A DNA stretch of 64,000 nucleotides, from NCBI RefSeq assembly GCF_021026095.1, contig NZ_JAJNCU010000004.1, forward strand, positions 1-64,000, written 5' to 3'. The notes beneath the pieces are model-generated. The model was not told the DNA's origin and did not search any database. It worked only from the letters and a program-made list of their open reading frames with translations. The stretch comes from Salinicoccus halitifaciens. GTDB lineage: Bacteria; Bacillota; Bacilli; Staphylococcales; Salinicoccaceae. The position numbers were made by a program, and so were the translations under genes. Positions 19,099 through 22,530 of this stretch are shown here, in pieces; within the stretch, counting starts at the first letter, position 1, and each line of letters starts with the position of its first letter.

Positions 19099-19974
19099 TC
19101 ATGCTTTCTTTCTGCGTTTCTTTTTATTTTTAGGCATCAATTTGGCGTTCTTCATGCGACGCTCTTTTTCAGCCTGTTCGCGCTCGTGCGCTTCGATGAT
19201 CGGTGCCATTTCTTCGTTGACTTTCTTCTTCCAGAAAGTGTTCCCGGCCCAAGTCTGGAAAATAAGGAATATACCGCCGACAGCCCAGTACAGAGGCAGT
19301 GCCGAAGGAGAGATCAAGGAAATCCAGACGATCATCAATGGTGAAATATACATGAAGAGGCGCATCTGTTTACGCTGCTCTTCGGAAACGAACTGCATTG
19401 AAACCCAAGCCTGTCCAAGGTAGACAAGACCTGCGATGATTGTCATGAGGATGTTCGTCTGCGTCAAATCCATCCACAGGAATTCCGGATATTCGGTGAT
19501 ACCGCCCTCTGAAGGGAATCTGAGCGCAAAGTAAAGCGCCATGACGACCGGCATCTGCAGGAGGATCGGCAGACAGCCCATATTCAGCGGGTTGATGCCG
19601 TGCTTTTTGTAAAGACCCATCATTTCCTGCTGGGCTTCCATCTTCTCTTCCTGAGTTGTTGCGACTTTGACCCTCTTCTGGATCTCTTCCATTTCAGGCT
19701 TCACGATCTTCATCTTCTCGCGCATCATCATCTGGTTTTTATATGTATTCATCATGAACGGGAAAATAACAAGACGGACGATTAGTGTGATGACAATAAT
19801 TGCCAGACCATAGTTGTGATTCAGATTATCGCCGAGAAAATGCAGGAGATTATCCATCGGCTGGACAAATGTATTAAAGAAGAACCCATCTCTGTTTTCT
19901 TCCTGAGAATAATCACAGCCTGCCAATAAAAGCACAAGCCCCATCATCCCAGCCAGTAACCATTTCTTATTCAT
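19099..19974 (-). CDS. yidC: membrane protein insertase YidC (lipoprotein)
   Basis: YidC/Oxa1 inserts and folds membrane proteins alone or with Sec. The 291-residue protein has a lipoprotein signal peptide with lipobox LLAGC (Cys about residue 20), then five membrane segments including GLAIIVITLIVRLVIFPFM, and a Lys/Arg-rich C-terminal tail (KNKKKRRKKA) that in the family contacts the ribosome. The conserved LPILLQMPVVMALYFAL region is present. A 468-nt gap with a hairpin array separates it from the NERD gene upstream. Confidence 0.95.
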   Translation of the reverse strand: MNKKWLLAGMMGLVLLLAGCDYSQEENRDGFFFNTFVQPMDNLLHFLGDNLNHNYGLAIIVITLIVRLVIFPFMMNTYKNQMMMREKMKIVKPEMEEIQKRVKVATTQEEKMEAQQEMMGLYKKHGINPLNMGCLPILLQMPVVMALYFALRFPSEGGITEYPEFLWMDLTQTNILMTIIAGLVYLGQAWVSMQFVSEEQRKQMRLFMYISPLMIVWISLISPSALPLYWAVGGIFLIFQTWAGNTFWKKKVNEEMAPIIEAHEREQAEKERRMKNAKLMPKNKKKRRKKA

Positions 19975-20442
19975 TCTTTCACCTCAAAAATTTATCTCAC
20001 ATAATAGAGATTGTACCATAATTCCATACCTAAAAAAATAAATATTATGTTCATTATGCGAACTTTCCCGGTTTCCGTGAAGTTTGAACATATTGGCCCG
20101 AAGTGTTGGGCTGGTGGGGATGTCTTTATTCTTCTAGTCTCAATTTCTGTTCTGATCCTTCTATATTTGCGGAACCTTGAAGTGTTTTAGGGTCAACGTT
20201 GCGAATACAGCACTTGGTTTCGCAACCTTCTGCCGAGTTCTGGGTCAATGTTGCGAATACAGCACCCGGTTTCGCAACCCTCTGCCGAGTTCTGGGTCAA
20301 TGTTGCGAATACAGCGCCCGGTTTCGCAACCTTCTGTCGAGTTCTGGGTCAATGTTGCGAATACAACACCCGGTTTCGCAACCCTAGACCGAGTGCCGGG
20401 GCAACGTTGCGAGTACAGCAGCTCAATATTTCTAACACGCCC
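19975..20442. other. 468-nt intergenic region with hairpin array
   Basis: This lies between the NERD gene and yidC, both minus strand. It should contain the yidC promoter near 19990-20060, which I did not resolve. The upper half (20146-20420) is a 52-bp-period repeat array. Open frames here (for example 20177-20569) arise from the repeat and switch frame each unit, because 52 is not a multiple of 3, so they are not genes. Confidence 0.6.
20198..20420. repeat. 52-bp tandem repeat array of identical hairpin stems
   Basis: Unit starts fall at 20198, 20250, 20302, 20354 and 20406, an exact 52-bp period. Four units contain a perfect 8-bp inverted repeat GTTGCGAA ... TTCGCAAC with a 13-nt loop that varies slightly (TACAGCACTTGGT, TACAGCACCCGGT, TACAGCGCCCGGT, TACAACACCCGGT). 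They are joined by a linker of about 23 nt close to CTTCTGCCGAGTTCTGGGTCAAT. The fifth unit is truncated (GTTGCGAG...), and a decayed copy lies at 20146-20197. The array begins 23 bp past the NERD stop codon. Confidence 0.93.
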
Positions 20443-21342
20443 TCAAAAAGATATATGGCTCTTCTTTCGATGCCTTCTGACACAGCTTTCCGAGATTTCT
20501 CCACCCGAAAATCTGTTTATAATTGTCGGCGTGATCTCCCACGTCCGATTAAGGGTCCTTATTTCATAGACGAGTCTCTTAATCACCTCAAGTGGCATCC
20601 AGGTGCTATCGCACCTCAGACATCTGAATCTCTGTTGATTATGTCGGGCTGCCCGCTCCCCGCAATCCCCGCAGAATACCCCTGTTTTCAAATCTTCAAA
20701 TAAAACCCCGACATCGCCCTGGTATTGGGATTCGACCAGCCGCTCCGCTTCAAGCCTTTCGACCAGATCGGAATGATCATAGCGGTTTGGATGCAGCACC
20801 TTCCTCAACTTCTTCCGCACATTGCTACATAGGAGGATTTCAGGTTTATCGGGCAGCCTGAATATGGTCTGATCAGGATTTATGAAGACGATCGTGCCAT
20901 AAAGGTTGATATTGAAGCCTGCCTTGTCCAAGAACCCCTGCAACGCGACTTTCTGCCTCCCCACCTGCAGCATCGGATCCCCGAACTTCCTGCCGTTTTC
21001 ATATGTCCACTGTCCCTCTACGTAAATCAGGTCAAAATTATAGTTCTTCACTTCAAAAGTGAACATTCTGTCCCCGGCGATGATGATGTTATCGATCTGG
21101 ATTTCCTGGTCGACGCTCGACTCCGCTTTCGTCTGACTGCCGTTCCTTCCAACTTTAAAACAAAAATCCTTCATGTGAATAAACTCCACATCACGGAAAT
21201 CTTCTTCCAAAATGTGATCGAACTCCACTTCACCTGCATAACCGCCCGCCAGTACTTTCAGCTCGTTCAGATCTGCTTCCGATAAATCGCAGCGGTATGA
21301 AAGTATCTCCAGCTGCCTGTGTCTCCGGCTTTTATTCCTCAA
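20443..21342 (-). CDS. NERD-domain predicted nuclease with C-terminal zinc ribbon
   Basis: This 299-residue protein has a NERD (nuclease-related) domain. It shows GEVEFD (about 38), IDNIII with Asp 84, and FEVKNYN with Glu 97 and Lys 99, the D...ExK core of restriction-endonuclease-like folds, so catalytic activity is possible. A zinc-ribbon-like motif follows with Cys 224, 227, 241 and 244 (CGDC ... CLRC), suited to nucleic-acid binding. The start is TTG at 21342 after AAGGGGGAAA. The substrate is unknown. It is flanked 3' by the 52-bp hairpin array, and its upstream region shares sequence with the region upstream of ssb. Confidence 0.82.
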   Translation of the reverse strand: MRNKSRRHRQLEILSYRCDLSEADLNELKVLAGGYAGEVEFDHILEEDFRDVEFIHMKDFCFKVGRNGSQTKAESSVDQEIQIDNIIIAGDRMFTFEVKNYNFDLIYVEGQWTYENGRKFGDPMLQVGRQKVALQGFLDKAGFNINLYGTIVFINPDQTIFRLPDKPEILLCSNVRKKLRKVLHPNRYDHSDLVERLEAERLVESQYQGDVGVLFEDLKTGVFCGDCGERAARHNQQRFRCLRCDSTWMPLEVIKRLVYEIRTLNRTWEITPTIINRFSGGEISESCVRRHRKKSHISF

Positions 21343-21391: not shown

Positions 21392-21510
21392 GAATTGTGC
21401 ACACATCGCAACAATTCAATTTCTGTCGGTAAAAAATGCAGTTATCAGATTTCCGACCCCGGTTTTCAACAGAATTGCAAAAACTGCGCGCAGAAATACA
21501 AAAATCGTAA
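21392..21510. repeat. intergenic element A (related to 23669-23790)
   Basis: This segment, about 50 nt upstream of the NERD start, shares collinear blocks with element B upstream of ssb. These are GAATT, then 17 nt on CAACAATTCAATTTCTGT (21409), then 82 nt on CAGAAATAC (21491), preceded by AAAACTG and AACAGA. Spacings are preserved within 1 nt in B. Confidence 0.6.
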
Positions 21511-21517
21511 AAAACAA

Positions 21518-21553
21518 AAAAGTACGGACAAGCATCACTTGTCCGTACTTTTA
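21518..21553 (-). terminator. terminator of the LysM protein gene
   Basis: The stem AAGTACGGACAAG / CTTGTCCGTACTT has a 5-nt loop. On the minus strand it is followed by TTTTTTGTTTTTT, 15 nt after the stop codon. Confidence 0.9.
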
Positions 21554-21567
21554 AATCATAAATTATA

Positions 21568-22530
21568 TTACAGTCTAGCACCACATACAGGCCAAGGCTG
21601 TGCGCCTCTGTCCGCGTAAAGCGCCTGGGCTCTTTGTGTCTGCTCAGCTGCTGAAGCCTGGGATGGAAGTCCTGTTCCACCTACTGATTGCCAAGTCTGT
21701 ACGTCAAACTGGTAAAGACCGTGGTAAAGGCCGTTTGCACTTACGATGCTTGCATCTCCGCCTGATTCACATGCTGCAAGCGCGCCCCAGTTTTGGCCGC
21801 CGCTGTTGCTTGGTGCAGCTGCCTGGTTCTGAGTTTGAACCGGCTCCTGCTGTGCTGGTGCCTGTTCAGCTGCTGGCTCTTCATATACTTCTTCTTCAAC
21901 AACTTCTGCTGCCGGTTCTTCGTATACTACTTCTTCTTCAACAACTTCTGCTGCCGGCTCTTCATATACTACTTCTTCTTCGACAACCTCAGTTGCAGGC
22001 TCTTCGTATACTACTTCTTCTTCGACAACTTCAGCTGCTGGCTCTTCATATACTACTTCCTCTTCAACAACTTCTGCTGGCTCTTCGTATACTACTTCCT
22101 CTTCAACAACTTCCGGAGCTTGTACAGGGGCAACTTCAGCCACTGCATCTTTTGAAACGATCAATTCGTTACCAGGGAAAATCAAATCTGAAGTTAAATT
22201 ATTCAGGTCCATCAGTTCTTTGACAGTCAGGTCGAATTCCACTGCGATTTCAAACAGTGTATCGCCAGGCTGGATTACATAGACGCCGGCTTCAGTTTCT
22301 GCTTTTTCTTCTGCAACTTCAGCTACCTGAAGCACTTGTCCAGGGAAAATCAAATCTGATGAAAGATCATTTGCTGCCTTCAAAGCAGATACCGTTGTGG
22401 AATTGGCTGCTGCGATTTCCGATAAAGTGTCACCTGATTGTACTTCATGTCCTTTTTCAGAAGCTTCCGCGTTGGCTGCAATGATTGATGAAACAGCGAC
22501 TGCTGTTCCTACTGATAATAATTTTTTCAT
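21568..22530 (-). CDS. secreted LysM protein with transglycosylase-like C-terminal domain
   Basis: This 320-residue cell-wall protein has a signal peptide (about 1-23, AANAEAS cleavage region), LysM domains at about 27-70 and 82-125, six near-identical Glu/Val/Tyr/Pro repeats at 140-221, a Gln/Pro/Ala linker, and a C-terminal catalytic-type domain (QNWGALAACESGGD, Glu 255; then GLYHGLYQFDVQTWQSVGGTG). The C-terminus resembles SceD/IsaA/Rpf-like lytic transglycosylases, so peptidoglycan cleavage is the likely role. Its place before ssb-fabZ matches sceD in S. aureus. A WalR-type box upstream points to control by the WalKR wall-stress system. Confidence 0.88.
   Translation of the reverse strand: MKKLLSVGTAVAVSSIIAANAEASEKGHEVQSGDTLSEIAAANSTTVSALKAANDLSSDLIFPGQVLQVAEVAEEKAETEAGVYVIQPGDTLFEIAVEFDLTVKELMDLNNLTSDLIFPGNELIVSKDAVAEVAPVQAPEVVEEEVVYEEPAEVVEEEVVYEEPAAEVVEEEVVYEEPATEVVEEEVVYEEPAAEVVEEEVVYEEPAAEVVEEEVYEEPAAEQAPAQQEPVQTQNQAAAPSNSGGQNWGALAACESGGDASIVSANGLYHGLYQFDVQTWQSVGGTGLPSQASAAEQTQRAQALYADRGAQPWPVCGARL
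21868..22113 (-). repeat. in-frame 39/42-bp tandem repeats in the LysM gene
   Basis: Six units encode variants of EVVEEEVVYEEPAA (units of 13 or 14 residues, residues 140-221). The DNA units are nearly identical, so slippage could add or remove units without a frameshift. The acidic linker probably spans the wall between the LysM anchor and the catalytic domain. Confidence 0.9.

Follow-up and report, generated by a model that had tools for sequence, protein, structure and literature searches.

Tandem intergenic palindromic arrays with unit lengths of four or five helical turns in Salinicoccus and related genera

What is a tandem array of inverted repeats doing between the gene for a NERD-domain protein and a yidC-type insertase gene, and does it belong to the neighbouring genes at all? 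The array in question is found in a stretch of 64,000 nucleotides from a Salinicoccus halitifaciens contig, called the window here. It lies between the NERD stop codon and yidC, both genes being on the minus strand, and its copies match at 88% with no indels in the TRF alignment. Four units consist of perfect half-sites separated by 13 nt, and the loops of these four are TACAGCACTTGGT, TACAGCACCCGGT, TACAGCGCCCGGT, and TACAACACCCGGT. Searching for the half-site pair with up to 3 mismatches gave 4 matches in the window, against 0.00 expected from 100 dinucleotide shuffles. An Rfam search of the array region gave no match even at E up to 1.

The first-pass annotation had described a 52-bp array with units at five positions, beginning at 20146. 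The period and the four perfect units stand as described. The fifth position (20406), however, holds only a lone 5' half, which lacks the 3' arm, and a start at 20146 is slightly too far out because the degenerate 3' half-unit (TTTGCGGAACCTTGAAGTG...GGGTCAAC) sits at about 20163-20197. The coordinates are collected in Table 1. Note that the minus strand given for the array is the orientation common to all arrays of this family, F1 (AAGGTTGCGAAANCRGG...ATTCGCAACRTTGACCC); the F1 consensus orientation is taken from 18 arrays.

Table 1. Features of the NERD-yidC junction (positions in the window)
Feature	Position	Strand	Basis
Degenerate half-unit, yidC-side array edge	20163..20197	-	TTTGCGGAACCTTGAAGTGTTTTAGGGTCAAC aligns to TTTCGCAACCTTCTGCCGAGTTCTGGGTCAAT, read from sequence
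52-bp palindromic tandem array, family F1	20190..20420	-	TRF period 52, 4.4 copies
Unit 1, inverted half-sites GTTGCGAA / TTCGCAAC	20198..20226	.	pattern match
Unit 2, inverted half-sites	20250..20278	.	pattern match
Unit 3, inverted half-sites	20302..20330	.	pattern match
Unit 4, inverted half-sites	20354..20382	.	pattern match
Unpaired fifth half-site GTTGCGAG, NERD-side edge	20406..20413	.	read from sequence
NERD-domain protein gene, neighbour	20443..21342	-	PF08378 E 5e-13
yidC-type insertase gene, neighbour on other side of array	19099..19974	-	PF02096 E 3e-42

Dispersal, position and genomic context

Many such arrays exist. Searching the window's own assembly (G000, 2.68 Mb) at the DNA level returned 38 matches across many loci. 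A covariance model built from F1 units was then run on genomes of the genus and the family. It found at least 102 units in G000, distributed over about 15 arrays, at least 74 units in the sister species (G005), 33 in G001, and 4 and 1 in G003 and G002, respectively; in 27 genomes from five other genera of the family it found none. The F1 half-sites of G000 recur in about 15 intergenic arrays, most of which occupy matching places in the sister species. The idea of an element specific to the NERD gene is not borne out, since none of the other GTTGCG arrays adjoins a NERD paralogue. The further paralogues in G000, with 39-47% identity to the window protein, are found at C1:213903, C1:154881, C10:187790, and C1:311588; one is apparently split in two frames. 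The first-pass annotation had set selection on the fold against the alternative of an inert repeat scattered between genes. The unit is indeed scattered, but the arrays do not look inert.

The F1 consensus in the common array orientation is AAG-GTTGCG-AAANCRGGNNCYGNATY-CGCAAC-RTTGACCCGR. Its arm positions are mostly 97-100% conserved, against 35-75% for most loop positions (18 arrays, two species). A different half-site, GCTTACG, is found at several loci of another species, which would be expected of a sequence dictated by a trans-acting factor. Direct search with the array of Lacicoccus alkaliphilus gave no other copy in five genomes; TCCGGA-type 51-bp arrays are nonetheless present in G000 and G005, as seen by inspection and TRF. 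At two conserved sites a GTTGCG array is followed immediately by a second, unrelated 51-bp family (TCCGGATCCGGA type), giving composite arrays (L086:1573-1841, L163:2435-2684, L159:6428-6780).

Array positions are stable. The NERD protein of the window shares 92% identity with its counterpart in Salinicoccus kekensis and 75% with the one in L. alkaliphilus, and an array is found at the NERD-yidC junction in each of the five genus members in which this junction is readable (G004 is left out of this comparison, as its contig ends there). The family at the junction is GTTGCG in G000 and G005, GCTTACG in G001, TCGTGCG-like in G003, and TCCGGA in G002. Among the genomes of other genera that were examined, none showed an array upstream of yidC; G006 has a 41-bp array downstream of this gene. 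Every G005 array site that synteny or DNA alignment placed on G000 is an array site there as well, implying that the arrays predate the species split. Where an array of G000 has no counterpart, G005 keeps about one unit or less: under one unit at C4:340, and about 42-46 bp at C4:63 and C4:198. At C4:204 the same intergenic position carries a 52-bp GTTGCG array in G000 and a 51-bp CTGCTCATTC...GAATGAGCAG array in G005.

Many arrays begin just behind an intrinsic terminator, and gaps between convergent genes are enriched for them. Such gaps hold 9/18 arrays in G000 (P 0.005), 11/18 in G005 (P 0.0008), and 4/9 in G001 (P 0.07, not significant), against a background of 18-22% of intergenic gaps derived from simple heuristic ORF calls. 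At least one site, C4:340, was seen on inspection to be misclassified, and the enrichment is therefore approximate.

Unit lengths in whole helical turns

Unit length was surveyed by an unbiased TRF scan. The stretches covered (approximate lengths) came from G000 (390 kb), G005 (370 kb), and G001 (400 kb) and, in other genera, from G006 (g2, 188 kb), G014 (g6, 200 kb), and G043 (g4, 400 kb). Non-coding arrays longer than 75 bp were counted in the first five of these genomes, which represent three genera, with two 12-bp low-complexity rows excluded. The 66 arrays have fundamental periods of 51 (32 arrays), 41 (20), 52 (10), 42 (3), and 54 bp (1). Thus the unit is 41, 42, 51, or 52 bp in 65/66 arrays, which corresponds to four or five helical turns, and the two length classes lie one helical turn apart. 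A helical repeat of 10.25-10.35 bp fits best, and none of 20000 simulations with uniform lengths between 38 and 59 bp was as periodic as the observed set; the arrays of G000 and G005 in this set are orthologous and hence not independent. Lengths of 41 and 52 bp are not codon multiples. The stretch sampled from the g4 genome gave two TRF rows, neither of them recognisably such an array, implying that the arrays are dispensable.

At 62% identity the 41-, 42-, 51-, and 52-bp arrays cluster into 24 sequence families, although threshold and sample are our choice and some of the clusters may be distantly related. Each family has one unit length, and 41 and 51 bp are never mixed. A significant inverted repeat is found in 16/24 families (combined P 1.6e-13) and a significant palindrome is absent in 8/24. 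The A/T content of the unit follows the helical period, with raised power at the corresponding harmonic (P=0.002), a modest signal. A half-site spacing of exactly two plus three turns was considered as a further rule. The rule holds for F1 (21/31) and for the 41-bp families (21/20, 22/19) and fails for GCTTACG (24/27), so quantisation is claimed for the unit length only. Two other genera of the family have their own 41/42- and 51/52-bp families, with unrelated sequences (G006:C5 and G014:C1; L275-L294).

The unit length is informative in itself, since units of 41-42 or 51-52 bp are the rule in about 24 unrelated families from three genera. Neither a helical quantisation of bacterial repeat units nor a report of repeats of this kind in Salinicoccus or Jeotgalicoccus was found in the open-access literature. 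Intergenic palindromic arrays dispersed over a genome belong to a known kind of element; as far as the open literature searched shows, fixed units of four or five turns over many unrelated families are undescribed.

Half-sites on DNA and the competing explanations

The arms of the units are kept as sequence and not as pairs. Over 19 orthologous array pairs the sister species differ at 23/320 arm positions, 56/267 loop positions, and 74/383 spacer positions (Fisher 7e-8). This is a divergence of 7% for arms against about 20% for loops and spacers, and none of the 19 pairs has a double arm change. The off-consensus arm cells of 32 arrays comprise 48 G-U, 44 A-C, and 54 other single mismatches, along with 5 compensated and 4 uncompensated doubles. 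Paired RNA or single-stranded DNA would be expected to give an excess of G-U over A-C on one strand together with compensation. Neither is seen, which argues for arms that act as half-sites in double-stranded DNA. The second hairpin in STAR units of Staphylococcus served as a positive control for the pair counts; 21 units picked by hand gave 37 both-side changes, with 84% paired. The first-pass annotation was therefore right that arms are kept while loops drift, but selection on the fold, which it drew from this, does not agree with these counts; of the roles that it offered, a protein-binding array is the one favoured by arm conservation without compensation.

The explanation that best accommodates the dispersal, the quantised length in about 24 families, the palindromy, the arm conservation, the positional stability, and the enrichment at convergent ends is that the NERD-yidC array is one copy of a set of dispersed intergenic palindromic arrays acting as double-stranded DNA, probably as cooperative binding sites of a sequence-specific protein. 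We give this reading a probability of roughly one half. A putative sequence-specific DNA-binding protein would occupy the tandem inverted half-sites. With units fixed at four or five helical turns, successive sites would lie on one face of the helix and could be bound cooperatively, and the arrays may have an architectural or topological role at the ends of transcription units, as proposed for enterobacterial BIMEs. Against this, about 24 families would need several binding specificities or a tolerant reader protein. The quantised length turns a function otherwise recorded as unknown into a testable prediction, namely a protein that binds DNA cooperatively and responds to insertions of half a turn, and the paired orthologous arrays form a natural series for testing phased binding.

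A broader proposal is offered tentatively. Genomes of the Salinicoccaceae type may possess a general intergenic array system in which unit length is selected as whole helical turns (four or five) whatever the sequence, with a co-evolving family of DNA-binding proteins. Sites would be inherited while families swap in place, making the system a bacterial counterpart of phased satellite DNA.

The main rival to phased protein binding is that the arrays are selfish or neutral minisatellites, sized by slippage or recombination, whose 41- or 51-bp unit is set by the generating mechanism and which have no function for the host. It explains the contraction to about one unit at C4:340, C4:63, and C4:198 and the exchange of families at one site well. 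Whole genera may also be without arrays, and duplication by way of, for example, an intermediate in which the DNA is bridged by a protein or forms a small loop could likewise give units of whole turns. Arm conservation is explained poorly, because a purely neutral array should drift evenly, whereas the arms are constrained relative to loops and spacers both at orthologous sites and over long-diverged loci. On balance we regard it as somewhat unlikely.

A role as RNA is less likely still. Here the arrays would act in transcripts as hairpins that stabilise 3' ends, terminate transcription, or insulate convergent genes against read-through. Their location at gene ends, just behind intrinsic terminators, agrees with this. 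A search of the interval from the NERD gene to the array found no intrinsic terminator, and transcription of NERD therefore probably runs on into the array. RNA of the plus strand of the window array is also more stable than shuffles (z -4.5). NERD-sense RNA, however, is no more stable than its shuffles (z -0.76), the orientation of arrays relative to flanking genes is mixed, and the arms show neither wobble bias nor compensation within arrays, all of which speak against the mRNA stabiliser that had been suggested for this locus. In addition, the unit lengths fit the turns of B-DNA (10.2-10.5 bp) and not those of A-form RNA. Between species, stem changes keep pairing at 3/6 stem positions. Covariation of RNA structure was considered for these changes, but the within-array counts and the orthologue pairs do not support it, and a shift of half-site fits equally well. 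A pseudoknot between loop CCGGGT and downstream ACCCGG was also considered; it fits the arrays of the window and S. kekensis by eye and fails in other arrays.

That the array is a substrate or partner of the adjacent NERD nuclease, as had also been suggested, is highly improbable: an array is present at the junction in 5/5 readable genus members, but about 14 other F1 arrays are not beside NERD paralogues and the junction family differs by species.

Comparison with known repeat classes

Membership in a known class (STAR, REP/RAYT, or CRISPR) is likewise very improbable, in spite of the dispersed intergenic palindromic repeats and the array structure; the best reading is that the arrays belong to none of the three and are analogous to BIMEs. 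BIME/REP arrays of enterobacteria bind gyrase, IHF, and Pol I. Like them, the arrays described here are palindromic, extragenic, found at gene ends, and enriched between convergent genes. Unlike them, they have head-to-tail units of a fixed four or five helical turns in about two dozen unrelated families. No REP tag was recognised, and no Y1 (RAYT) transposase (PF01797) is found in the near-complete genomes G000, G001, G002, G003, and G005; G004 has only a fragment at a contig end.

Mycobacterial MIRU repeats are about 51-54 and 77 bp long. They resemble the present arrays as intergenic tandem units of about five helical turns, but are said to overlap the starts and stops of genes within operons; the two are set apart here by description and not by sequence. 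Bacterial intergenic minisatellites such as STAR, SIRU, and MIRU serve strain typing.

STAR elements, whose function is not described (Purves et al. 2012, PMC3532100), are similar in forming dispersed intergenic tandem arrays in a related family, with several loci per genome (about 15 arrays in G000), locus-specific spacers, and variable copy number. A start signature, GTGGGACAGAAATGAT, is among the marks of the class. The STAR motif TNTGTTGNGGCCC has 0 matches in G000, and paired STAR motifs are found only in genus g8, in 9/120 genomes of the order. STAR unit length drifts (about 53-63 bp among the pairs listed) and is not quantised, in contrast to the fixed 41-42 or 51-52 bp here. STAR loci are not conserved between species, whereas the present arrays are mostly conserved between two sister species. 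Compensatory change is strong in the second STAR hairpin (37 both-side cells) and almost absent in the arrays here. This hairpin is contained in the STAR spacers, with compensated stem changes such as AGAATTTC/GAAATTCT, AAGCTGAC/GTCAGCTT, GAAACTG/CAGTTTC, and others (Staphylococcus genomes G082-G112; L254-L273), and is not mentioned by Purves et al. (2012, PMC3532100).

False CRISPRs, or STAR-like elements, share the repeat-spacer look without cas genes. Only the STAR signature or tandem-repeat status delimits this class (PMC5294841), and the passages considered here describe no length quantisation. Cas1 (PF01867) is absent in G000, G005, G001, and G003, and the unique spacers of true CRISPRs are not seen, since the units of an array are nearly identical throughout, including their loops and spacers. 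The L. alkaliphilus-like genome G002 carries a Cas1 gene (C4:639-1508; L295), which the five remaining genomes of the genus lack.

Two minor features of the window lie on the NERD side of the array. A sub-threshold Rfam match to the ribosomal L20 leader at 21510-21600 (33 bits, cut-off 58.7) coincides with a strong terminator behind the gene of a LysM-containing cell-wall protein (21568-22530, minus strand) and is probably due to chance. The LysM gene itself contains a 42-bp in-frame coding repeat (PAEVVEEEVVYEE) at 21865-22113, whose copy composition differs by species.
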